Position numbers and translations under genes: made by a program. From assembly GCA_934364795.1 (NCBI GenBank), contig CAKRMK010000024.1:1-47190 (forward strand): a DNA stretch of 47,190 nt. The letters run 5' to 3'. This DNA comes from an uncultured Blautia sp. (GTDB lineage Bacteria > Bacillota > Clostridia > Lachnospirales > Lachnospiraceae). Shown here piece by piece: positions 19,989 through 37,313 of this stretch (positions are counted from its first letter, which is position 1; each line of letters begins with the position of its first letter). The notes below the pieces were generated by a model. It worked only from the letters and a program-made list of their open reading frames with translations, was not told the DNA's origin and did no database searches.

Positions 19989-20062
19989 TAAGAAAATGGC
20001 TGCCAGCAGAATCTTTTTTTGATATACTCTGGCAGTATAATTTTCACAGATTGGAGAATAGC

Positions 20063-20818
20063 ATGAAACTTGTATCATGGAATGTAAATGGAATCCGTGC
20101 GTGTATTACCAAGGGCTTTGAAGAAAGCTTTTCACAGCTGGATGCAGATATCTTCTGCCTGCAGGAAACAAAATGCCAGGAGAATCAGGTAAAGCTGGAG
20201 CTTCCCGGATATTATCAGTACTGGAATTATGCCAACCGCAAGGGCTACTCCGGAACTGCTGTTTTTACAAAAAAAGAACCAATTCTTGTAACTTATGGAA
20301 TGGGGATTCCGGAACATGATAAAGAGGGGCGTATCATAACAGCAGAAATGGATAATTTTTATCTGGTTACAGTTTATACCCCGAATTCCCAGTCAGAGCT
20401 TCGCAGACTGGAATACCGTATGGAATGGGAGAGGGATTTCCTTTTGTATCTTCTGAAGCTGCAGGAAAAGAAGCCTGTGATCTGCTGTGGAGATATGAAC
20501 GTGGCACATCAGGAAATTGACCTGAAAAATCCCAAGACCAACCGCATGAATGCAGGATTTACAGATGAAGAGCGTTCCTGCTTTACCAAAGTACTGGAAG
20601 CCGGATTTATTGATACGTTCCGTTATTTTTACCCGGATCTTACCGGAGCCTATTCCTGGTGGTCTTACCGCTTTAAGGCAAGAGAGAAAAATGCCGGATG
20701 GAGAATTGATTATTTTCTTACATCCCCTTCTTTGAAGGATTCTCTCATAGATGCGAAGATTCACAGTGAAATTATGGGATCAGATCATTGTCCGGTGGAG
20801 CTGGATCTTAAAGACTGA
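20063..20818 (+). CDS. exoA: Exodeoxyribonuclease III / AP endonuclease
   Basis: Base-excision repair nuclease of the ExoIII/ExoA family (endonuclease/exonuclease/phosphatase fold), 251 residues. Active-site motifs in order: SWNVNGIRACI (metal and DNA-binding Asn), LQETKCQ (metal Glu), GYSGTAVF, TVYTPNSQ, CGDMNVAHQEIDLKNPKTN (catalytic Asp and Asn), GAYSWWSYR and GSDHCPVELDL (catalytic Asp-His). The start is ATG 20063 after TTGGAGAATAGC; a TTG at 20051 would sit on the ribosome binding site. It appears to be a single-gene unit with its own promoter; the GH13 gene follows after 56 nt. Confidence 0.94.
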   Translation: MKLVSWNVNGIRACITKGFEESFSQLDADIFCLQETKCQENQVKLELPGYYQYWNYANRKGYSGTAVFTKKEPILVTYGMGIPEHDKEGRIITAEMDNFYLVTVYTPNSQSELRRLEYRMEWERDFLLYLLKLQEKKPVICCGDMNVAHQEIDLKNPKTNRMNAGFTDEERSCFTKVLEAGFIDTFRYFYPDLTGAYSWWSYRFKAREKNAGWRIDYFLTSPSLKDSLIDAKIHSEIMGSDHCPVELDLKD

Positions 20819-20874
20819 ATATTTCCAGCACATCATTTACAGACGGACATGAGAAAGACAGGAGGGGAATTTTG

Positions 20875-22848
20875 ATGGCAGTACCAGGAAATAAAAATTT
20901 GATACCACAGCCGGGAGATCCGCTTTTACTGGGGGCGAACAGACTTTCAGACGGGTATAATTTCGCTGTGGAGGCAGAAGAGGACTCACAGGTTTCTTTA
21001 CTTCTTTACCGCAAAAAGGGAAAAGAGCCTGTCTATGAGCTGCTTCTGGATGAAAAATACCGTACAGGGCGCGTATTTGCTGTCCTTTTGAAGAAACTGA
21101 ATGTAACGAATCTGGAATATAATTTTAAAATAAATGGTAAGGTAGTACTGGATCCCTGTGCATTTGAAATCAGCGGAAGAGAGCACTTTGGAACTGCTTT
21201 AGACGGGGATGCCCATAAGCTTCGCTGTGGCTTTCTTAAGGAAAAGGAATATGACTGGGAAGGGGATATAATGCCTGACACCGGGTATGAGGATCTGATC
21301 TTATATAAAGTACATGTAAGAGGATATACCAGGCAGGCGAAGCTTCCGGCACCCTTAAGGGGAACCTATGCCGGTCTTGTGGAAATGCTCCCTTATTTAA
21401 AAGACCTTGGAATTACAGGTATTGAGCTGATGCCTGCCTATGAATTCATGGAAGTGACACAGGAGCTGGAACCAGATGGACTGGTTTCACGCAAAAGCAA
21501 AAAAGACGAGGTCAATTACTGGGGATATAAGCAGGGCTTTTATTTTGCTCCCAAGAAATCCTATTGTGCAACCAAAGATCCGGAGAAGGAATTCTGTGAT
21601 ATGATAAAGGCTTTTCACCAGGCTGGAATCCTTTGTATTATGGAAATGTATTTTCCGGCCACAGTAAGTCCGCTTACTGCGCTTCGTGCACTTCAGTTCT
21701 GGAAACGGTATTATCATGTGGATGGTTTTCATGTTCTGGGAGAGGGTGCCTCTCTTGATCTTATTATGAAAGACGGGGTACTGTCCGGAACCAGAATTAT
21801 GGCAGCCGGAATGGATATGAATGCTTTTTATCAGGGGAAAAAGCCTGCACACCGCAGATTTGCGGAATATAATCTTGGATTTTTGCAGGATATGCGCCGG
21901 TTCCTGAAAAGTGACGAGGATATGGTGCCGGCAGTCCAGTACAGGATCCGCCATAATCCGGATGACCATGGTGTGGTGAATTATATTACCTGTCAGGATG
22001 GTTTTACTTTAAATGACCTTGTGTCTTATAATTACAAGCATAATGAGGCAAATGGAGAAGGGAATAATGACGGCTGCAGCTATAATTATTCCTGGAACTG
22101 TGGCGTGGAGGGACCAAGCCGTAAGCAGCAGATCCGCCAGATGCGGGAGCACCAGATGCGGGCAGCTTTTGCCATGATGCTGTTTTCACAGGGAGTTCCT
22201 ATGATTTATGGCGGGGATGAGATTGGTAATTCCCAGAATGGTAATAACAATGCTTATTGTCAGGACAATCCCATTGGCTGGACAGACTGGAAGGGCCTAA
22301 AAAGAAATGCCGGACTGCTTGCTTTTGTGAAAAAAGCAGTTGCGTTCCGAAAGGAACACCCTGTTCTTCATGCTGATGGTGCCATGAAGGAGGCAGACAG
22401 CCAGGGAAAAGGTTTTCCAGATATGTCCTTCCATGGCGAACGGGCGTGGTTCTGTAATATGGAAAATACAAGCCGCATGATCGGTATGATGCTTTGTGGA
22501 GGGCGTCCTGGAGCAGATGGAAAAAATGCCGATGATTTTATTTATGTAGGTTATAATTTCCACTGGGAAGTCCGTAAGATTGCCCTGCCTAATCTTCCAG
22601 AGGGAATGCAGTGGAAAAAGGTGATGGATACAGGAGATCTATCCGGTGACGGATTTTATGAAGATGGCCCGGTGTATACAAGAGAGGTGGAAATGGGCCC
22701 CCGTACTGTGTCCGTGCTGATGGGCGTACCTGTGAAACAGGAGAAAAAAAGCACACAGCACTCCCATGGAGTGAAAAAGGTGGCAGAAGAAAAGGGTGAA
22801 AATTCAGACAGGAGGGTGAGTGAGGATGCATCCGTGGCTTCACTTTAA
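20875..22848 (+). CDS. GH13 glycogen-debranching homologue lacking catalytic residues
   Basis: A 657-residue protein with the isoamylase/GlgX layout: N-terminal beta-sandwich (about 15-115), (beta/alpha)8 barrel (about 140-520) and C-terminal domain. Strong family segments are VNYWGYKQGFYFAP, CQDGFTLNDLVSYNYKHNEA, YSWNCGVEG, LFSQGVPMIYGGDE and NNNAYCQDNPIGWTDW. Yet the catalytic regions are altered. Region I reads EMYFPAT where DVVYNHT is usual (257-263). Region II reads VDGFHVLG for VDGFRFDL (282-289), so Leu288 replaces the nucleophile. Region III reads MAAGMD for IAEPWD (309-314), so Ala311 replaces the acid/base. Region IV keeps Asp375 but has Gln374 for His. It is probably not a hydrolase; glycan binding or regulation is my inference. 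ATG 20875 follows GGAGGGG. The 3' end overlaps the next gene. Confidence 0.85.
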   Translation: MAVPGNKNLIPQPGDPLLLGANRLSDGYNFAVEAEEDSQVSLLLYRKKGKEPVYELLLDEKYRTGRVFAVLLKKLNVTNLEYNFKINGKVVLDPCAFEISGREHFGTALDGDAHKLRCGFLKEKEYDWEGDIMPDTGYEDLILYKVHVRGYTRQAKLPAPLRGTYAGLVEMLPYLKDLGITGIELMPAYEFMEVTQELEPDGLVSRKSKKDEVNYWGYKQGFYFAPKKSYCATKDPEKEFCDMIKAFHQAGILCIMEMYFPATVSPLTALRALQFWKRYYHVDGFHVLGEGASLDLIMKDGVLSGTRIMAAGMDMNAFYQGKKPAHRRFAEYNLGFLQDMRRFLKSDEDMVPAVQYRIRHNPDDHGVVNYITCQDGFTLNDLVSYNYKHNEANGEGNNDGCSYNYSWNCGVEGPSRKQQIRQMREHQMRAAFAMMLFSQGVPMIYGGDEIGNSQNGNNNAYCQDNPIGWTDWKGLKRNAGLLAFVKKAVAFRKEHPVLHADGAMKEADSQGKGFPDMSFHGERAWFCNMENTSRMIGMMLCGGRPGADGKNADDFIYVGYNFHWEVRKIALPNLPEGMQWKKVMDTGDLSGDGFYEDGPVYTREVEMGPRTVSVLMGVPVKQEKKSTQHSHGVKKVAEEKGENSDRRVSEDASVASL

Positions 22849-23368
22849 GACAATTACAAAACATAAATTAATGGTCATGAAATATTGTTTCCGTATTGGG
22901 CTGTATAAACAGGGTCTGCTTCATGACCTTTCCAAATATTCACCTTCAGAGTTTTTTGTTGGCTGTAAGTACTATCAGGGAACCAGAAGCCCAAATAATG
23001 CAGAGCGGGAGGATATTGGTGTTTCTACTGCCTGGCTGCATCATAAGGGGCGTAACAAGCATCATTATGAGCACTGGGTAGATTATGCAATTAATGACCC
23101 GGAACACGTAATTATGGGTGCGAGAATGCCCCGCAGATATGTGGCAGAAATGGTGATGGACAGGATCAGTGCTTCCAGGACATATCTTGGAGATGCCTAT
23201 GATAATCACCAGCCTCTGGAATATTTTCTGAAAAGCAAGCCCAAGCTGTGGTTTGTCCATCCCCAGACCAAAAAGGAGCTGGAGGGCCTGCTTCGTATTC
23301 TCTCAGATAAGGGAGAAAAAAAGGCTTTATGGTATATTAAAAATGTGTATCTGAAAAAAGGCAAATAG
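22826..23368 (+). CDS. DUF5662 family protein
   Basis: A 180-residue protein I assign to DUF5662; function unknown. Conserved-looking histidine motifs suggest a metal site: GLLHDLSKYSPSEF near residue 32 and AWLHHKGRNKHHYEHW near residue 70, followed by RMPRRYVAEMVMDRISAS. The HD pair in the first motif recalls HD-domain hydrolases, but the full HD pattern is not evident. ATG 22826 lies inside the preceding GH13-like gene with GGAGG 10 nt upstream, so the two overlap by 23 nt and are likely co-translated. A GTG at 22820 is possible but too near the ribosome binding site. Confidence 0.75.
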   Translation: MHPWLHFKTITKHKLMVMKYCFRIGLYKQGLLHDLSKYSPSEFFVGCKYYQGTRSPNNAEREDIGVSTAWLHHKGRNKHHYEHWVDYAINDPEHVIMGARMPRRYVAEMVMDRISASRTYLGDAYDNHQPLEYFLKSKPKLWFVHPQTKKELEGLLRILSDKGEKKALWYIKNVYLKKGK

Positions 23369-26984: not shown

Positions 26985-28496
26985 TTAATATCGTAACAGA
27001 CGCCTGATCTGGAGCTGGTTCAGATACTTATTGTGCAGATTCAGACCAAGAACCCTTTCACAGGCATCCAGCAGCTCATCATAATAAGTGAACTGATAAA
27101 TATTTCCGGAAATCTGTACACAGTTATATCGTTGCAGGGAGTCTATGATCTGCGCCGTGGAAAAACGGAAATCCAGCTTGGCCTGAAGCATCCGCATGAT
27201 GACAAAAGCAGTAAAACATATGATGAAATGTGCATTGATTTTTTCCGGAGTCCAGATAAAAGAGGGCAGTGAGTCATAATTGCTTTTCATAGCGCGAAAA
27301 TTGGATTCCATACGTCGAAGCCCGTTATAGCACAAAAACAGGGAAGAAGAATCTGCCTGCAGTTCGCTGGTGACAATGGCGTAATATCCATCCAGTTTTA
27401 ATCCTGTTTTGCGGCCGATGGTTTCTCTTGCAAGGCGTTGCTGCCTTGCCTGTAATTCATGGTAACACACAAATTGTTTTTCTCTGTTTTCAAAAATACG
27501 TTCTTTGTAAAGCAGCGGTGATGTGTCAGCAGAATCGCTCCAGGCATTCAGCTTCTGGTAGCCATCGGTGAGAATCCATTCTTTAAATTCCAGGTCTGCA
27601 TTGTAAACAGACTGTTCGTAAATGAAACCGTCAGGAACCAGCCCGTCACAGATAAAGGGCTGGCTTTTTGTCCGTTTTGCAGAGGTAAAAATATAACGGC
27701 AGTCAAAACCGTCCTTTTTGATTCTCTTTACAGCTGTGGAAACGGACTGGTTCAACTGGATATCACCTGTAAAAAGATCGTATGCAACCGGGATTCCCTG
27801 GTGATCTGTCAATAGCTTCAGCCTCAGTGTGGAATCGGTTCTTTTGGAATTAGGCTGTGTTTCGGATGTCCGGATTCCGGGAATGGAGAATGTGTAATCT
27901 GTCTGATCCAGAAAAGCCACAGAAAGATCCCTGTCAAGTAAAGCATGAGAGTGTTCAAAGATCCATTTCTGAATATCTTTTTGGTATTTTACGATTATAT
28001 TTAGTGCGGAGTCAATATGTTCCTGGGAAAAAGCAGGTACAGTCTCAAAATAGCTCTCCTTTTTCATGGTGGTGGTCCAGGGAGTATTGGGATACAGAAT
28101 CTGGGAAATCACAATAAATCGAAAAACTTCTTCTATATTGTAGGGAAGAGAAAGCTTCCAGGCCTTTGTACGCCAGAAAATATCCAGCTGTAGTTCTTTG
28201 TACAAAAATTTCAAAATCCCATAGCCGATATTTTTCTGTGAAAGCTCACTTGGAAGGAGGGGAGTAGTGAGGTCTATGTATACAACGGAATTTTTCCTGG
28301 TTTCCCGTTCCTGGTTCATGTCAGCAACTACCTGCTCGAAATGGGCAACCGGGTCCGGATATTCTTTTTTTAATTCTTCCAGATAACCAAGAGGCATGAT
28401 GGTTTTCTGGCGGGTAGTTTTCCTTTCTTTATCATAGTAGGATTCGGTGATGGCAAGATAAGTGCCTTTAGGTTTGGGAGTTTTTTTCAGAAACAT
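26985..28496 (-). CDS. IS1634-like transposase, middle catalytic Asp not evident
   Basis: A 503-residue protein of the IS4/IS1634-type DDE transposase group. Seen: an N-terminal GTYLAITESYYDKERKTTRQK segment typical of IS1634; a candidate first acid in AFLDQTDYTFSI (Asp197); GIPVAYDLFTGDIQLNQSV; and YNGLRRMESNFRAMKS with Glu397, the usual final acid. Where relatives have a D-R-G-type second Asp, this reads FTSAKRTKSQ (270-279), so the middle acid looks lost or displaced. I start at 28496 with AGGAGG 6 nt upstream, dropping 39 unrelated residues from a longer frame. Ends of an insertion sequence were not resolved. It could be a decayed or domesticated transposase. Confidence 0.8.
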   Translation of the reverse strand: MFLKKTPKPKGTYLAITESYYDKERKTTRQKTIMPLGYLEELKKEYPDPVAHFEQVVADMNQERETRKNSVVYIDLTTPLLPSELSQKNIGYGILKFLYKELQLDIFWRTKAWKLSLPYNIEEVFRFIVISQILYPNTPWTTTMKKESYFETVPAFSQEHIDSALNIIVKYQKDIQKWIFEHSHALLDRDLSVAFLDQTDYTFSIPGIRTSETQPNSKRTDSTLRLKLLTDHQGIPVAYDLFTGDIQLNQSVSTAVKRIKKDGFDCRYIFTSAKRTKSQPFICDGLVPDGFIYEQSVYNADLEFKEWILTDGYQKLNAWSDSADTSPLLYKERIFENREKQFVCYHELQARQQRLARETIGRKTGLKLDGYYAIVTSELQADSSSLFLCYNGLRRMESNFRAMKSNYDSLPSFIWTPEKINAHFIICFTAFVIMRMLQAKLDFRFSTAQIIDSLQRYNCVQISGNIYQFTYYDELLDACERVLGLNLHNKYLNQLQIRRLLRY

Positions 28497-28943
28497 GTGG
28501 AACCTCCTGGGTAATTTACAAAATAATTTATGGGATGTGTTATTGATTGTTTTTATGATAGTAAACGTATCTGTCCTGAAAATAATTTTAACATGATTGA
28601 AACAATACATCAAGATACACCATAAAAAACGCTGAATTAGTACTACAAAAACAGATAAATATTGTAAGAAAATATGATTGGAAAGTAAAAATAATTATAC
28701 AATTTGACGAAAAAATCTAAGGCATTGAAAGCGAAAAAACCTCTGCTTGTTTTGGGTAAAAGGGCAGAAATATAAAAATACATGATAAGTGGAATTATTT
28801 TTGTGAAAATAATTAAAAAAATGAGTAATAATTATATATATAACTAAATACACTATATAGAACATTGTATTATGCTCATCAATAATTTGCTAAAACAGCG
28901 AAAATATAAGCTTTTTTTCGTTATTTTAAAATATTGAAAAATA

Positions 28944-29150: not shown

Positions 29151-32100
29151 ATGAAAACAAAGAAATCAAGGCTGAAATCATTTTTTGCCATGCTTTTGGT
29201 CGTATCCATGGTCTGTCAGCAGTCAAGTCTGACGGTACTTGCAACAGAGGATACATACGAAGCAGACGGGGAGACTGTGGCACAGGAAGTTCCTGTTGTC
29301 CAAGAAACTACTGGCGAAATTCAGCAGCAAAATGAGCAGGCAGCAGAAGGTACAGCTGCAGAGGAACAGAGTGAGCCTGTAGTGCAGGATCAGACAGAAA
29401 GCGAAAATGTAGAAGGCTTAGAACAAGTGACAGAAGCTTCTACAGATCAACCGACAGTAGAGATAACGGATGTTCCGTCAGACCAACCAACGGCAGAAGC
29501 AGAAGTAACAGAAGCTCCATCAGAGGAACCGACGGCAGAAGTAACAGAAGCTCCGTCAGAGAAACCGGCAGCAGAAGTAACAGAAGCTCCGTCAGAAGAA
29601 CCGGCAGCGGAAGTAACAGAAGCTCCGTCTGAAAAACCAGAAGTGACAGATGTTCCACAGGTGGAGCCAACCGCAGAAGTAACGGAAGTTCCCACAGAGA
29701 AACCAACCGCAGAAGTGACAGAAATGCCGGCAGAGAAACCAACTGCAGATCCTACAGTTACACCTGACGAACCAACAGAGGCTCCAGCACCAAGCGCAGA
29801 GGCTACTCCAATTCCGGAAATTAGTATAGAACCTACAGAAACGCCGGCTCTGACTCCGAAAATAACAGAAGCACCGACAGAAGAACAAGCGGAAGTGGTA
29901 GGAAGTGTTACGCAGGAAGTTCTGAATCGCGAAGTTGACGGGAATATGGCCGCTGTTATAAAATTTAAAATTAAAGTTGAAAATTGTTCTGTTGACAAGG
30001 ACGCTGTAACAGACATAAAAGCTATTTTGCCTGAAACTTTAACCTTTCTTACTGATAATGAAACCACAGAAGATTATATAGTAGAGAATGGAACGATAGC
30101 TTGGAAAAAACAGGAAATTTCAGCATATGAAGTGAAAGAATATGTTTTTTTTGCACTTGTGAATGAAAATGTTACAGACACTAAAAATTTAATTGTAAAA
30201 TTTTACATTGATGATGAAAAAATTCCCGACAATAAAGTAAGCTGGGCAAATACTGAATTATTGAATATTGCGAAAGTGGAAGAAGCTCCAACCTTATTAT
30301 CTTCAGTCTGTAGTGGGGTTGAAGTAACGGTAACTGCAGATGAGGGCGTTTTAGAGCCAGGTACTACTTTAAATGTAAAAAAAGTTAGTACTATAAAAGC
30401 AACAGAGGCTGTTGAAGATATACTTGCAGAAAATCAGTCAGTAGAAGAATTAGTTGCTTTTGATGTTACACTTGTAAAAGATGGCGAAGAAGTTCAACCT
30501 AATGGACAGGTTAATCTTTCGTTTGCAAATATTTCTTTTGTAGATCAGGCAGAAGACGAAGATAAAGAACTGGTTATTGCACATGTTGCCGATAGCATGA
30601 CCGATGCAGAAGATATGGGAGAAATAATTGTTTCTGATGATTCAGTAGCAGTGGATACCACACACTTTTCCGTATATGCAGTAGCATTGGTAAAAGCAAG
30701 CGATGAAACTGAATATAAAACAATAACAGAGAAATATGAATCACAGAATGGATTTAATTATAATGACGGAAATAACAGTTATAGTTCAATTGCATTTGAC
30801 TTTCATATATTCGCAAAAGAATCTACAATAACTAACCATACAAATGGTAATATTGCTGCAAATAAATTTAATGGCGGTGGACACGGAATTGGTACGAATC
30901 AGAATAGAGAGGATAATGTACTTGAGTATAATTATTTTGGTGAATCCGCCAACGGAGTAGGAACCATTGCCAGTGGAATTACTGTTATCGGAAAGAATAT
31001 TTCTACATCTAAAGAGAACAACGGTAAAGAACTTACGATTGGAAATGGTACGAAACAGGAAGAAAGTGTATCTAAAAATATTTATAAAGAAGCGCAGGAA
31101 TCTGACGCATTTATTGATATTGACAGTGAATTAGAAAATCTAAAACTGATATCTAAAGATATGGCGCAAAATGGAACCAGCAGTGAGATTAAAACAGATT
31201 TTCCGGCAGATACTAATAATAAGATAGTTGTTGATTTATCAAATTCACAAAATCAGATTAATTATTTGAATGTTACAGCAGAACAGTTACGAAGAAATGG
31301 AAATAAAAGTATAATTTTGTTCAAGGGATTATCTGGAAAAACATTAATTGTGAATGTGGATATGACAGGAGCAGATCCAGCGGCACTTGAGAATATTGTA
31401 TCAGAGATTGAAGGATTTAGTAATGGAGAAACTGTTGTACGATCTGAGTGTAATCTTTTGTGGAATTTTTATGAAAGAAAAAATGGTCAAATTCAATCTT
31501 ATACAACATCCGAAGATCAGTATGCCAAAATTGGAACCAGTGATTATTTTATGGGTACAATTCTGGCTCCAGGTGCAAATGTAAAATATGGTGCATTGAA
31601 TGGATCTGTGATTGCACAGAAAACCGAAAGCTCTGGAAAGGAATCCCACAATTGGAGGTACTCTGGTTTATCTGCTACTATAACAGTTAATAAATCTTTT
31701 GATGTAAGTAATGCTTCTGCACAGACATTCTATTTTGCAATCTTTTTAGATCAAGGTGTAACCAGAGTTACGGATCAAGCTGTTAAATCTGTTACTTTGT
31801 CCGGGGGACAATCGGGCACAGTGAAGTTTAGCAATTTAAAATCTGGAGTAACATATTATGTTTATGAAACAGATGTAAATGGAAATCCTGTGGGAGATAA
31901 TTTTGCTTACACAATTGTTGGAGGAAATGGAAAAGTCATTATACCTGAACAGGGAAATAATGATATAAGTATTAGCAATACAACTAAACAGATACAGACA
32001 TCAATTGAAATAACTGCTAATAAAAAATTGAAAGGAGGGGTATTACAGGCTAATCAGTTTAGGTTTACTCTAACTCAAATTGATGACAATGGAAATCCAT

Positions 32101-35100
32101 GTGGAACTCCAGTGACAGCAACAAATGATGCAAATGGGTATATTGCATTTCCGGAGATTACTTACACAACTGTAGGTGCATATAATTATGTGATAGAGGA
32201 AATTACCGGAACCGATGACAAATATGAATATGATACAAGTTCTTATAATGTAGAGGTGAGGGTAAGTGATGATGGAAATGGTGGCCTGACAGTAAGTAAA
32301 ACAATCACCAAAAACGGTACGAAAGTAGCCGTTGCCGAATTTATTAATAAGTGCATAAAAGTTGATATTGAAGGAAGTAAAACTTGGTCTGATAATAACA
32401 ATAAATATACCACCCGTCCGGGAGAGATTACAATCCGTGTAAAGAACGGAACAAGAGAAGTAGCGAGTACGACAGTAACCGCAGCTAACAACTGGAGTTA
32501 TGAGTTTAAAGGTCTGCCGAAGTATGACAGTGATGGAAATGAAATCCAGTATAGCATTGAAGAAGATGCAGTAACCGGTTATGATTCCAGTGTAACCGGT
32601 TATGATGTAGAAAATACGCTACAGACCATTGACATCAGTGGAAGCAAGGAATGGAACGATGCGGGAAATGAGGGCGCACGCCCAACAGAGATCACCGTAC
32701 GTCTTCTTGCAGACGGAAAGGAAGTGGACCATGCCGAGGCGAACGAGTCAAACGGCTGGAGCTGGAGCTTCAGTGGAAAGCCGAAATACGCAGCCGGAAA
32801 CGAGATCAAATATTCGGTAGTGGAAGACAATGTAGAGAACTATACGACAGAAAAGGGAACCGGAAAGTACGATATCAAGAATACGTATAACCCGGGAAAG
32901 ACCAGCATCCATGTGACCAAGGCATGGAACGATGCCGGAAACAAGGATGGAAAACGGCCGTTGAGCGTGAAAGTGGAGCTTTACGCAGACGGAAAGGCAA
33001 CCGGAAAGACCGCAACCCTGAATGAGTCAAATGGCTGGAGCTACACCTGGAGTGATCTTGATGAGAAGTCAAATGGAAGAACCATTACTTACAGTGTAAA
33101 GGAAAAGGATGTAAATGCAGCATATACGGTAACGTATGATGGCGATGGAAAAGGAAACTTCACCGTGACCAACACCCATACCCCGGAGACTGTTGACATC
33201 AGTGGAAGCAAGGAATGGAACGATGCGGGAAATGAGGGCGCACGCCCAACAGAGATCACCGTACGTCTTCTTGCAGACGGAAAGGAAGTGGACCATGCCG
33301 AGGCGAACGAGTCAAACGGCTGGAGCTGGAGCTTCAGTGGAAAGCCGAAATACGCAGCCGGAAACGAGATCAAATATTCGGTAGTGGAAGACAATGTAGA
33401 GAACTATACGACAGAAAAGGGAACCGGAAAGTACGATATCAAGAATACGTATAACCCGGGAAAGACCAGCATCCATGTGACCAAGGCATGGAACGATGCC
33501 GGAAACAAGGATGGAAAACGGCCGTTGAGCGTGAAAGTGGAGCTTTACGCAGACGGAAAGGCAACCGGAAAGACCGCAACCCTGAATGAGTCAAATGGCT
33601 GGAGCTACACCTGGAGTGATCTTGATGAGAAGTCAAATGGAAGAACCATTACTTACAGTGTAAAGGAAAAGGATGTAAATGCAGCATATACGGTAACGTA
33701 TGATGGCGATGGAAAAGGAAACTTCACCGTGACCAACACCCATACCCCGGAGACTGTTGACATCAGTGGAAGCAAGGAATGGAACGATGCGGGAAATGAG
33801 GGCGCACGCCCAACAGAGATCACCGTACGTCTTCTTGCAGACGGAAAGGAAGTGGACCATGCCGAGGCGAACGAGTCAAACGGCTGGAGCTGGAGCTTCA
33901 GTGGAAAGCCGAAATACGCAGCCGGAAACGAGATCAAATATTCGGTAGTGGAAGACAATGTAGAGAACTATACGACAGAAAAGGGAACCGGAAAGTACGA
34001 TATCAAGAATACGTATAACCCGGGAAAGACCAGCATCCATGTGACCAAGGCATGGAACGATGCCGGAAACAAGGATGGAAAACGGCCGTTGAGCGTGAAA
34101 GTGGAGCTTTACGCAGACGGAAAGGCAACCGGAAAGACCGCAACCCTGAATGAGTCAAATGGCTGGAGCTACACCTGGAGTGATCTTGATGAGAAGTCAA
34201 ATGGAAGAACCATTACTTACAGTGTAAAGGAAAAGGATGTAAATGCAGCATATACGGTAACGTATGATGGCGATGGAAAAGGAAACTTCACCGTGACCAA
34301 CACCCATACCCCGGAGACCATAAACATCGATGGCTCCAAAACCTGGAACGACAACGGCGATGAATCCAATCGTCCATCCAGCATCATCATCAATCTTCTT
34401 GCCAATGGCACAGTGGTTGACACCAAAGAAGTAACTGCTATAGATAACTGGACCTGGAAGTTTGAAGGAAAACCGAAATACGAATCTGGAAAAGAAATCA
34501 AATACACCGTATTAGAAGACCCGGTTGACGGATTCATTTCATCCAAAGGTGACGGAGATTACGATATTGTAAATACTCCGACCAAGGTAACCATCAACAA
34601 AGTAGAAGCCAGAAACAAAGAGAATCTTTCAGGTGCAACCCTTCAGATTAAGGATGCAGACCTCAATGTGGTTGAAGAATGGGTTACAGATGGAACACCA
34701 CATGTAATTATCGGAAAACTTGCAATTGGTAAAACTTACACATTAGTTGAAACAATAGCACCGAAAGGATATGCAGTTGCAGATCCGGTTACATTTACCG
34801 TTGAGGAAGATGCCACAAAGAATGAAATAACACTTGTAGATGTATACTCTGCAAAAGGCTCCCTGTCCCTGACAGCAACCAAGCGCCTTACCACAAACGA
34901 AACTGCTCTTTTGCCAGATCAGTTCACATTTGTCCTTTGCGACAAAGATGGAAACATCCTTCAGACAAAGAAAAATGATGCAGATGGTAATGTAACATTT
35001 GACGAGATCCCATATGTTCTGAAAGCAGAGATAGATGAGAATGGTTCTTATGTTTACACAGATGAAACGGGCTCCTATGAGTACACTGTGAAAGAAGTAA

Positions 35101-37313
35101 ATGACGGTAAAGCTGGTTACACCTACGATGACACTATTTACACCGTAAACGTGGAAGTAACGGATGCTGGTGACGGTAATTTAACGGTAACACCGAAGTA
35201 TCATTCTTCCAAAGCAGCATCTGCTGATGAGACAGTGGAAGCCATGACATTTAACAATATCTATACAGCTTCCGGTGAGATTGTCCTGGATGCTACAAAG
35301 AGCCTGACAGGTCAGAACTTGGAAGAAAAACAGTTTACCTTTGAAGCAAAACAGGTAAATGAAAAGGGCGAAGCGGTCACAGACGGTTACAAAGAAACAG
35401 CAAACAATGATGCAGGTGGAAAGGTTATTTTCCCAATCATCAAATACGAGAAATCCGGAATTTACTTCTACCAGATCACAGAAGTAAATGATCAGAAATC
35501 CGGTTATGAGTATGATGGAAGCATCTATCTTGTAACAGTAGAAGTAAAAGATGACGATGCCGGAAACTTAACAGCAGCAATCAAGTCTGTTAAGAAAAAT
35601 GGCGAGGAAGTACCAGAGGGTGAAAATATTGTATTCCACAACACTTATACTGCTTCTGCAGAACTTGAGCTGACAGCTAAGAAATCCATGAAGATGGAAG
35701 GTACCGAACTTGGAACCTTCGAGTTTGAGCTGAAAGATGCTGCCGGAAATGTAATAGAAACGGTACAAAATGATGGAACAGGAACCATCACATTCAGTAA
35801 GCTTCCGTATGATCAGACTGCGATTGGCCAGACATTTACCTACACAGTAAATGAGAAGATCCCAACTGCAGAGGAACAGGCAGGCACAGAAGGAACAAAA
35901 TATGTATATGACCACACCATCTACACAGTAACAGTGAATGTAGAAGATAACAAAGATGGTACTTTGAAACTAAATAAGACCATCACAGCTGACGGCGTGG
36001 AATATGCAGAGGAGGCTATGAAGTTTGTCAATGACACAACGAAGGTAACCATTTCCAAGATCGATGATGCCAGCGAAAAAGCTCTTGAAGGTGCAACTCT
36101 TCAGGTGACAGATGCAGATGGCAATGTAATCGAAGAGTGGGTTTCCGATGGAACACCTCATGTAATTACAGGAAAACTGATTGCAGGAAAGACCTATACT
36201 TTAGTGGAAACCATTGCTCCGGAACATTACGAAATTGCAGATCCAATTGAATTTACAGTAGAGGAAGACGATACTAAGAATGAAGTTGTGATGCGTGATG
36301 TAATGACAAAGAGCAAGAAAGCTGCGATTAAGATCACCAAAGAGCTGAAGCTGAACGATGAGCTTATGACAGCTGTTGACAAGACGTTCTATGTGGCACT
36401 TTTTGCAGACCAGGAGTGCACAAAGATGGTATCTGAAATAAAAGCGCTTGAGTTCAAAGATGCTTCTTCTGCAACTGTTGAATTTAAGGGGCTTGATCTT
36501 GGCAGAACCTATTATGTGAAAGAAGTTGACAAAGACGGTCAGGTAATCGAAGTTGGAACCACAGAGGATGGAACTGCTTTTGTACCGTTCTTCCCGGAAG
36601 GCAACGAGGCAACCATTACAGAAGATGGAGAAAAAACTACGCTTACCTTCGAAAACCAGTTTACAGACTGGCCGGATGGATTCTACCTCGAGGCGAAGCT
36701 TACCATTACCAAGCAGCTTCTGAAGGCAAACGGTAAAGCGCAGAAGAGCGATAAAGTATTCTACGCAGGAGTCTTTGAGGATGAAGACCTGACCACATTG
36801 ACAACAAAACTTGAAAAACCGGTTATCAAATTGGATCTTGCCGGTAATTCACAGGCATCTGAAACAGTCAAGATGGTGCTCGAAGAAGGTGAAAGCTTCA
36901 AACTTTATATAGCAGAGACAGATAAGAATGGAACTCCTGTAGATAATCTGGAAAAATTTGCATATGATTATACCATTGAAAATGGAAATGTAAGTTTTGA
37001 CAAAGATAATACAGTTGGGGAAGTAACCATTATTAATAAGCCTCGTCCAAAGGTAACGCCAACGGTGACTCCGACTGTTACCCCGGAAGCAACACCTACA
37101 GAAACACCAAGCGTAACACCTACTGATACACCACAGTCTACTCCGACTGTGACACCAGAAGGAAACGCAACGCCTACACCGGTGCCGACCACCTCCACAG
37201 GTGTGAAAACCGGTGACGATACACCAATCGGATTTTATCTGCTGCTTCTTCTTGCAGCAGCGATTACAGTAGAAGAAACTGTAAGAAGACGCCGTAAAAA
37301 AGAACAGGATTGA
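29151..37313 (+). CDS. Giant cell-wall surface protein with choice-of-anchor A and many CnaB/pilin-type domains
   Basis: A 2720-residue adhesin. Signal peptide 1-31 (cleavage after VLA); Thr/Pro/Glu-rich repeats about 35-240; an Ig-like region about 250-510; a choice-of-anchor A-like domain about 540-840, ending in GTILAPGANVKYGALNGSVIAQ; FctA/Spy0128-like domain about 950-1068; CnaB about 1071-1159; three identical 188-residue units (1160-1723), each with two CnaB domains; CnaB 1724-1806; a SpaA-like module near 1810 and its near copy near 2297, with FctA-like domains between; two further beta domains; a Pro/Thr linker 2632-2680; and an anchor at 2683-2720 made of TGVKTGDD, a hydrophobic helix and RRRRKKEQD. 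Lys in SK(E/T)W and Asn in the NT(Y/H) endings suit isopeptide bonds. There is no LPXTG and no sortase gene in view. The ATG follows AAAGGAGGACATGAC. Likely binds host or mucus ligand (inference). Confidence 0.88.
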   Translation: MKTKKSRLKSFFAMLLVVSMVCQQSSLTVLATEDTYEADGETVAQEVPVVQETTGEIQQQNEQAAEGTAAEEQSEPVVQDQTESENVEGLEQVTEASTDQPTVEITDVPSDQPTAEAEVTEAPSEEPTAEVTEAPSEKPAAEVTEAPSEEPAAEVTEAPSEKPEVTDVPQVEPTAEVTEVPTEKPTAEVTEMPAEKPTADPTVTPDEPTEAPAPSAEATPIPEISIEPTETPALTPKITEAPTEEQAEVVGSVTQEVLNREVDGNMAAVIKFKIKVENCSVDKDAVTDIKAILPETLTFLTDNETTEDYIVENGTIAWKKQEISAYEVKEYVFFALVNENVTDTKNLIVKFYIDDEKIPDNKVSWANTELLNIAKVEEAPTLLSSVCSGVEVTVTADEGVLEPGTTLNVKKVSTIKATEAVEDILAENQSVEELVAFDVTLVKDGEEVQPNGQVNLSFANISFVDQAEDEDKELVIAHVADSMTDAEDMGEIIVSDDSVAVDTTHFSVYAVALVKASDETEYKTITEKYESQNGFNYNDGNNSYSSIAFDFHIFAKESTITNHTNGNIAANKFNGGGHGIGTNQNREDNVLEYNYFGESANGVGTIASGITVIGKNISTSKENNGKELTIGNGTKQEESVSKNIYKEAQESDAFIDIDSELENLKLISKDMAQNGTSSEIKTDFPADTNNKIVVDLSNSQNQINYLNVTAEQLRRNGNKSIILFKGLSGKTLIVNVDMTGADPAALENIVSEIEGFSNGETVVRSECNLLWNFYERKNGQIQSYTTSEDQYAKIGTSDYFMGTILAPGANVKYGALNGSVIAQKTESSGKESHNWRYSGLSATITVNKSFDVSNASAQTFYFAIFLDQGVTRVTDQAVKSVTLSGGQSGTVKFSNLKSGVTYYVYETDVNGNPVGDNFAYTIVGGNGKVIIPEQGNNDISISNTTKQIQTSIEITANKKLKGGVLQANQFRFTLTQIDDNGNPCGTPVTATNDANGYIAFPEITYTTVGAYNYVIEEITGTDDKYEYDTSSYNVEVRVSDDGNGGLTVSKTITKNGTKVAVAEFINKCIKVDIEGSKTWSDNNNKYTTRPGEITIRVKNGTREVASTTVTAANNWSYEFKGLPKYDSDGNEIQYSIEEDAVTGYDSSVTGYDVENTLQTIDISGSKEWNDAGNEGARPTEITVRLLADGKEVDHAEANESNGWSWSFSGKPKYAAGNEIKYSVVEDNVENYTTEKGTGKYDIKNTYNPGKTSIHVTKAWNDAGNKDGKRPLSVKVELYADGKATGKTATLNESNGWSYTWSDLDEKSNGRTITYSVKEKDVNAAYTVTYDGDGKGNFTVTNTHTPETVDISGSKEWNDAGNEGARPTEITVRLLADGKEVDHAEANESNGWSWSFSGKPKYAAGNEIKYSVVEDNVENYTTEKGTGKYDIKNTYNPGKTSIHVTKAWNDAGNKDGKRPLSVKVELYADGKATGKTATLNESNGWSYTWSDLDEKSNGRTITYSVKEKDVNAAYTVTYDGDGKGNFTVTNTHTPETVDISGSKEWNDAGNEGARPTEITVRLLADGKEVDHAEANESNGWSWSFSGKPKYAAGNEIKYSVVEDNVENYTTEKGTGKYDIKNTYNPGKTSIHVTKAWNDAGNKDGKRPLSVKVELYADGKATGKTATLNESNGWSYTWSDLDEKSNGRTITYSVKEKDVNAAYTVTYDGDGKGNFTVTNTHTPETINIDGSKTWNDNGDESNRPSSIIINLLANGTVVDTKEVTAIDNWTWKFEGKPKYESGKEIKYTVLEDPVDGFISSKGDGDYDIVNTPTKVTINKVEARNKENLSGATLQIKDADLNVVEEWVTDGTPHVIIGKLAIGKTYTLVETIAPKGYAVADPVTFTVEEDATKNEITLVDVYSAKGSLSLTATKRLTTNETALLPDQFTFVLCDKDGNILQTKKNDADGNVTFDEIPYVLKAEIDENGSYVYTDETGSYEYTVKEVNDGKAGYTYDDTIYTVNVEVTDAGDGNLTVTPKYHSSKAASADETVEAMTFNNIYTASGEIVLDATKSLTGQNLEEKQFTFEAKQVNEKGEAVTDGYKETANNDAGGKVIFPIIKYEKSGIYFYQITEVNDQKSGYEYDGSIYLVTVEVKDDDAGNLTAAIKSVKKNGEEVPEGENIVFHNTYTASAELELTAKKSMKMEGTELGTFEFELKDAAGNVIETVQNDGTGTITFSKLPYDQTAIGQTFTYTVNEKIPTAEEQAGTEGTKYVYDHTIYTVTVNVEDNKDGTLKLNKTITADGVEYAEEAMKFVNDTTKVTISKIDDASEKALEGATLQVTDADGNVIEEWVSDGTPHVITGKLIAGKTYTLVETIAPEHYEIADPIEFTVEEDDTKNEVVMRDVMTKSKKAAIKITKELKLNDELMTAVDKTFYVALFADQECTKMVSEIKALEFKDASSATVEFKGLDLGRTYYVKEVDKDGQVIEVGTTEDGTAFVPFFPEGNEATITEDGEKTTLTFENQFTDWPDGFYLEAKLTITKQLLKANGKAQKSDKVFYAGVFEDEDLTTLTTKLEKPVIKLDLAGNSQASETVKMVLEEGESFKLYIAETDKNGTPVDNLEKFAYDYTIENGNVSFDKDNTVGEVTIINKPRPKVTPTVTPTVTPEATPTETPSVTPTDTPQSTPTVTPEGNATPTPVPTTSTGVKTGDDTPIGFYLLLLLAAAITVEETVRRRRKKEQD
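32629..34318 (+). repeat. Three tandem identical 564-bp repeats in the adhesin gene
   Basis: Units begin at 32629, 33193 and 33757. I see no base difference between copies, including at silent positions; the last copy diverges only at its final bases (34319-34320). Each encodes 188 residues with two CnaB domains. Base identity at silent sites means recent duplication or ongoing gene conversion. Copy number may vary between strains, and such repeats are a known assembly hazard. Confidence 0.95.

Follow-up and report, generated by a model that had tools for sequence, protein, structure and literature searches.

Isoamylase-type proteins without catalytic residues are already known from plants, where ISA2 has lost these residues and works in complexes with ISA1 according to the sections of PMC12510319 devoted to them. 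The same sections place two tryptophans in the glucan site SBS1 of ISA2 and raise the question of why selection retains a dead isoamylase. Among bacterial relatives, the GlgX of Streptomyces is described in excerpts of PMC9530166 as having a c-di-GMP (cyclic di-guanosine monophosphate) site. Here we describe a gene, pseudo-GlgX, in a 47,190-nucleotide stretch of DNA from an uncultured Blautia sp. (positions 1 to 47,190 of the forward strand of contig CAKRMK010000024.1; hereafter the window). Its product is best read as a conserved pseudoenzyme of the GlgX/isoamylase fold, and we give about an even chance to the more specific view that this pseudoenzyme is a non-catalytic binder of branched alpha-glucan such as glycogen.

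The pseudo-GlgX gene (20875..22848, + strand) encodes 657 amino acids in an intact open reading frame (ORF) that runs from the ATG at 20875 to a stop codon ending at 22848. Its ribosome binding site (AGGAGGGG, 20860..20867, + strand) lies 7 nt before this ATG, and a TTG at 20872, three bases upstream of the ATG, is a possible alternative start. The frame lies where an earlier annotation made from the DNA letters alone (the sequence-only reading) had put it when it described an intact gene, with a strong ribosome binding site, for a debranching-enzyme homologue without catalytic residues. Profile matches, solved relatives and predicted fold all assign the protein to the GH13 isoamylase/GlgX fold. 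Against the GlgX profile TIGR02100 it scores 355.6 bits (E 4.4e-106) and stays below the equivalog cut-off of 640.9, which is strict because real GlgX of the sampled family score 608 to 687 bits themselves, with one fragment at 456. The closest solved structures by sequence are TreX and Streptomyces GlgX (each E 1.6e-72). Structure modelling, as proposed in the sequence-only reading and here fed with clade members only and no GlgX rows, yields a model that matches GlgX and ISA1 over the full length through N-terminal domain, barrel and C-terminal domain; ISA2 chains are also among its structural matches.

We assessed the catalytic positions in a careful alignment of 133 members of the pseudo-GlgX clade with 35 GlgX controls. 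The 133 rows comprise the window protein, 122 sampled loci, and 10 of the 12 pseudo-type loci of an earlier locus search (L007 and L009 were dropped as near-copies; L222, L224, and L238 are cut by contig ends), and 8 of the 35 controls come from the 55 GlgX loci of that locus search. The 122 sampled loci were fetched from 122 genomes of a 150-genome sample covering the family of genome G004 (locus L004, Blautia schinkii DSM 10518), which we take to be Lachnospiraceae from the genus name Blautia. In the window protein, Leu288 occupies the place of the nucleophile Asp, Ala311 that of the acid/base Glu, and Gln374 that of the region IV His; the region I Asn-His and the region II Arg are lost as well, and the transition-state Asp is kept as Asp375. 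Region I (residues 254 to 264; 21634..21666, + strand) reads CIMEMYFPATV in place of DVVFNHT and is followed by a deletion that removes some 45 residues from the loop linking regions I and II in GlgX. Region II (residues 280 to 291, YHVDGFHVLGEG; 21712..21747, + strand) has His286 at the Arg position besides Leu288, and some 14 residues of the GlgX spacing from there to region III are missing. Region III (residues 307 to 314, RIMAAGMD; 21793..21816, + strand) contains Ala311, and region IV (residues 370 to 378, YITCQDGFT; 21982..22008, + strand) contains Gln374 and Asp375.

These are the very losses listed in the sequence-only reading, and in the alignment with GlgX that it had called for, positions 288 and 311 are occupied by neither Asp nor Glu. 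Its statement that only Asp375 remains is right for the window protein and wrong as a family rule, given that 36 of the 133 clade members keep the region IV Asp and 17 have Glu at the acid/base column (L132 and 16 others). The two loop deletions and the sharing of the loss across the clade had escaped it, and the orthologue search it had suggested finds similar losses to be widespread in the sampled family.

Across the clade, the full catalytic triad is present in 0/133 members versus 35/35 GlgX controls, with two triad residues left in 4 members, one in 46, and none in 83. The nucleophile column holds Asn, Leu, Val, Ile, Met, and others, and Asp in a single member (L115). Both active-site loops are shortened in 133/133 members: the stretch between regions I and II has 30 to 31 residues versus 75 to 80 in GlgX, and the spacing of regions II and III is 22 to 23 versus 36 to 37 residues. 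Among the best 120 of 7992 scored homologues, none has the nucleophile Asp or a full triad, and a faster alignment of these sequences gives Glu at the acid/base column in 18/120 and the region IV Asp in 117/120. This faster alignment displaced one column (52 of 55 real GlgX were scored as lacking one residue) and is superseded by the careful alignment and by an alignment-free motif count. The latter, made on a differently composed set of 133 sequences (the best 120 of the 7992 homologues, 12 loci, and the window), finds motifs I, II, and III intact in none and motif IV in five. None of the 122 sampled loci has an intact motif I, II, or III either, and 54 of the 55 GlgX loci contain all four motifs, the exception being L053, which reads X in region I (L068, at less than 100 bits, and the second piece of L053 were excluded from the count).

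It is highly unlikely that the protein has remained an enzyme, whether by rebuilding its active site or by acquiring a new activity. What speaks for such an enzyme is the persistence of the acid/base Glu and the region IV Asp in parts of the clade together with the four members that have two triad residues, a group of GH13 alpha-amylases with an aberrant catalytic triad described in parts of PMC5347038, and the 77 of 150 genomes in which GlgX, type I pullulanase, and GDE_C all fall short of the thresholds used, 58 of which carry the pseudo-gene. However, the nucleophile column is variable and virtually free of Asp both in the clade and among the best-scoring homologues, and two active-site loops are missing. 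Moreover, of the positions conserved at 85% or more, just five carry a residue other than the one most frequent in GlgX (Lys227, His281, Glu395, Gln439, and Asp508), and the equivalent of Glu395 also occurs in 11 of the 35 GlgX. Because the cleavage machinery has decayed without a new consensus, a new enzyme is not what we expect.

Conservation is instead found on the distal side of the cleft. The acarbose contacts of S. venezuelae GlgX given in excerpts of PMC9530166 include Trp222, Tyr224, Glu470, Asn534, and Tyr536, which correspond to Trp216, Tyr218, Glu395, Asn459, and Tyr461 of the window protein. These residues are kept in 133, 120 (plus 13 with Phe), 129, 131, and 120 (plus 11 with Trp) of the 133 clade members, respectively, and the contacts at the cleavage point are mostly lost; Arg212 was left uncounted because its loop aligns poorly. 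Glu395 lies in a retained loop after region IV (residues 385 to 413; 22027..22113, + strand) that counts among the best-conserved stretches in the clade and is modelled with low confidence at 386 to 412. Asn459 and Tyr461 belong to a retained GGDE...NNNAYCQDN...W segment (residues 447 to 472; 22213..22290, + strand) with similarly low model confidence at 454 to 467. Since the distal cleft side is kept and the cleavage point mostly lost, we prefer a non-catalytic glucan binder over the alternatives. The retained half-cleft, formed by these five residues and nearby loops, would grip a glucan chain without cutting it, and pseudo-GlgX may in this way act as a glycogen-associated scaffold or regulator. 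We infer that the protein probably binds glucan, that glycogen may be the ligand, and that the effect may be one of scaffolding or regulation.

Several observations weigh against a glucan binder. The five retained contacts are weak evidence because the need to fold may explain much of what the clade shares with GlgX: in 94 columns, the residue commonest in GlgX is conserved to at least 85% in the clade. Furthermore, some contacts at the cleavage point persist in part of the clade, since the W380 column has Trp in 37 of the 133 members, Phe in 36, and Tyr in 9, and the H449 column has His in 48; the most conserved loops (386 to 412 and 454 to 467) have a model confidence below 50. The CBM48 match of the window protein falls below the Pfam cut-off, and ISA1 is reported to lack the CBM48 glucan site in the parts of PMC12510319 concerned with this domain. 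No glycogen gene is found among the annotated neighbours (xth, DUF5662, UvrD, ABC-F, TraX, LuxS, and TyrRS). Finally, GlgA is present in every one of the 27 sampled genomes in which no pseudo-GlgX was detected, and pseudo-GlgX is therefore not needed for glycogen synthesis.

The ratio of nonsynonymous to synonymous substitution rates (dN/dS), a check proposed in the sequence-only reading, reveals purifying selection and agrees with its statement that this is not a decaying pseudogene. Values for pseudo-GlgX are 0.046 to 0.063 in three Blautia pairs, compared to 0.041 to 0.049 for the upstream neighbour xth, 0.087 to 0.130 for the downstream neighbour DUF5662, and 0.017 to 0.023 for real GlgX. 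Four more distant pairs give 0.086 to 0.140 with dS near saturation, and the window's own pairs likewise rest on near-saturated dS values of 1.9 and 2.9. Mean pairwise identity is 39% among the 122 sampled pseudo-GlgX versus 59% among 27 GlgX of the family, so pseudo-GlgX is genuinely constrained, though less tightly than GlgX. The protein also evolves faster than its neighbours, with 72.6% identity between the window and L001 versus 92.8% for xth and 95.6% for DUF5662. This difference is what decay or a sequencing artefact would have in its favour, yet we assign practically no probability to either, given that 119 of 122 sampled genomes have the complete ORF (contig ends truncate it in the remaining three) and that dN/dS is far below 1.

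Phylogenetically, pseudo-GlgX is one old clade. In each of two trees, both built from part of the rows picked partly at random, a single fully supported branch separates it from all other rows. Among the rows used, its sister group consists of 34 GlgX: 31 belong to the sampled family or its kin, one to Acetivibrio, and two to bins with the labels Omnitrophota and Nitrospirae. The simplest explanation is one early loss, probably followed by spread through descent. On this view, the catalytic residues and two active-site loops would have disappeared from an old copy of GlgX, probably a single time and early in the history of the sampled family, and the gene would have been retained ever since. 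Pseudo-GlgX was found in 123 of the 150 sampled genomes using a pseudo-type profile (A1) that diverged or intermediate forms could escape, with two genomes of ambiguous weaker matches (G050 and G122) counted as lacking it. The 150 genomes contain GlgA in 149, GlgX in 43, type I pullulanase in 37, GDE_C in 27, and DUF5662 in 130 cases; genome completeness is not given, so that absences are soft, and all co-occurrence statistics are uncorrected for kinship among genomes that may be closely related. Nearly all of the 77 genomes without a recognised debranching enzyme have glycogen synthase. At the level of the class, 7 of 196 sampled genomes matched at 1e-80, namely two already known (G004 and G028), four with new pseudo-type genes (L241 to L244), and one (G350) with a real GlgX (L245). 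Pseudo-type genes are thus present in 6 of the 196 genomes, and the clade seems to be mainly a trait of the sampled family and its near kin. At locus L138, a second GlgX-like ORF of about 809 amino acids lies directly downstream of pseudo-GlgX and is a possible tandem duplicate.

This distribution bears on the idea that pseudo-GlgX is a bacterial counterpart of plant ISA2, i.e., a non-catalytic subunit that binds and tunes an active GlgX in the same cell. We consider this doubtful, although 9 of the 12 pseudo-gene-bearing genomes of the locus search also have a real GlgX, the pseudo-gene is carried by 41 of 43 genomes with GlgX versus 82 of 107 without it (Fisher p 0.008, uncorrected for kinship), Streptomyces GlgX dimerises according to excerpts of PMC9530166, and ISA2 works in complexes. 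On the other side, 82 of the 123 carriers have no GlgX at E 1e-130, with some of these absences soft for want of completeness values. A partnership with GlgX as the general role is contradicted by this count, with GlgX detected in 41 of 123 carriers. The non-catalytic glucan binder that we prefer could also be framed more broadly as a family-wide glycogen-binding pseudoenzyme that works without an active debranching partner and whose half-cleft serves the glycogen particle as receptor or scaffold, but this wider version is tentative and clearly less probable than glucan binding as such.

In the window, the gene order is xth, pseudo-GlgX, DUF5662, and putP. The exodeoxyribonuclease III gene xth (20051..20818, + strand) lies upstream, in the same order as in 11/11 relatives (L001 to L011), and it precedes the pseudo-gene in all 11 loci that can show it, since L013 starts at a contig end. 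The DUF5662 gene (22820..23368, + strand; first ATG at 22826) has a frame that overlaps the end of pseudo-GlgX (22820 to 22848) and comes next in 12/12 loci (L001 to L011 and L013), followed by putP in 5 of 11. We surveyed neighbours more widely in 2 to 3 kb fetched per locus, considering clusters found in at least 3 of 42 loci and annotating part of these clusters. Downstream of the 122 sampled pseudo-genes we find DUF5662 in 63 (on the same strand), TraX in 36, LuxS in 25 (23 on the opposite strand), and TyrRS in 22 loci; upstream, UvrD is found in 40, ABC-F in 35 (plus 13 on the opposite strand), and xth in 24 loci. A gene resembling sugar-binding periplasmic proteins lies upstream in 17 of the 122 loci (L115, L118, L157, and others), with Peripla_BP_4 in one that was scanned. 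No glycogen gene occurs among the 16 other window genes scanned, which are part of the window's ORFs.

Such surroundings invite the alternative that the protein has left glucans behind and serves as a scaffold in a housekeeping or stress pathway together with DUF5662, TraX, ABC-F, or exonuclease III. We regard this as unlikely. It gains from the constant presence of DUF5662 in the 12 loci, from its same-strand position in about half of the wider survey, from the recurrence of TraX, ABC-F, and UvrD there, from the overlap of the two frames in the window, and from a protein (P0070) that carries both domains. However, pseudo-GlgX occurs in 108 of 130 genomes with DUF5662 versus 15 of 20 without it (p 0.36), the overlap is not conserved, and P0070 is a single sequence for which one frame slip in the overlap suffices. 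In addition, 5 of the 13 proteins listed join DUF5662 to decarboxylase domains, and the sugar-contact residues persist in pseudo-GlgX.

P0070 itself (808 amino acids) is a read-through fusion of pseudo-GlgX and DUF5662 and the sole such fusion among the 13 proteins listed. A programmed frameshift between the two genes was considered and rejected: among the window and the 12 loci, only the window and L006 have the CTT TAA end inside the DUF5662 frame, and L001, L004, L005, and L013 have no overlap at all, though P0070 reads straight through. We also rejected the idea that DUF5662 is a glycogen phosphatase acting as the catalytic partner of pseudo-GlgX. Its model is poor (predicted local distance difference test score, pLDDT, of 66.6), a fold search with this model returned no match at E 0.001 or better, its co-occurrence with the pseudo-gene is no better than chance, and only P0070 joins both among the 13 proteins. 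The fusions of DUF5662 to a diaminopimelate-decarboxylase-like enzyme (P0121, P0122, P0124, P0126, and P0127) are a clue to the function of DUF5662. Elsewhere in the window, an ORF of 2720 residues (29151 to 37313, + strand) resembles a giant surface adhesin in that it combines eight stretches of Cna_B with FctA, SpaA, and an ice-binding-like adhesive domain, and between it and DUF6553 lies an ORF of 542 residues without a Pfam match (26985 to 28613, - strand).

In the open-licence literature consulted, including portions of PMC11046441, PMC10395257, and PMC4236520, we found no description of a bacterial pseudo-GlgX, of its structure, or of DUF5662. According to a 2023 review, Blautia obeum ATCC 29174 has two glgX homologues (in the relevant part of PMC10395257), one of which we infer to belong to the pseudo-GlgX clade, and pseudo-GlgX genes have probably been counted as GlgX so far. 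In that case, the number of debranching enzymes is overestimated in surveys of gut bacterial glycogen metabolism: recognised GlgX is present in only 43 of the 150 genomes, while 149 have glycogen synthase, and pseudo-GlgX, with 123 genomes, is commoner than GlgX itself. A glucan-binding role would add a non-enzymatic layer to bacterial glycogen biology that is hidden in annotation as GlgX or pullulanase. The clade also provides a bacterial system besides plant ISA2 for asking why selection keeps a dead isoamylase.

Compared to GlgX and TreX (TIGR02100, GH13_11 type), pseudo-GlgX has the same predicted whole-length fold, domain order, loops after region IV, NNNAYCQDN segment, and distal sugar contacts; it differs in lacking the nucleophile, the acid/base residue, and the region I Asn-His, in its two shortened loops, and in scoring below the family cut-off. 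A further point of comparison is GlgD, the second ADP-glucose pyrophosphorylase subunit of Firmicutes and a largely non-catalytic paralogue in the glycogen pathway. GlgD is present in 147 of the 150 sampled genomes and resembles pseudo-GlgX as a non-catalytic paralogue in the same pathway, but it has an unrelated fold and acts at a different pathway step. Judged by analogy, the nearest counterpart of pseudo-GlgX is plant ISA2, likewise a GlgX-type paralogue that has lost its catalytic residues including the nucleophile and is kept by selection, as the pertinent sections of PMC12510319 describe it. Unlike ISA2, pseudo-GlgX is bacterial and adjoins the GlgX of its own family in the tree (built without ISA2 sequences), its shortened loops are a trait of the whole clade, and most of its carriers have no detected GlgX. 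A dead isoamylase is thus already known as plant ISA2, and the novelty of pseudo-GlgX is that of a bacterial, loop-excised, family-wide GH13 pseudoenzyme.
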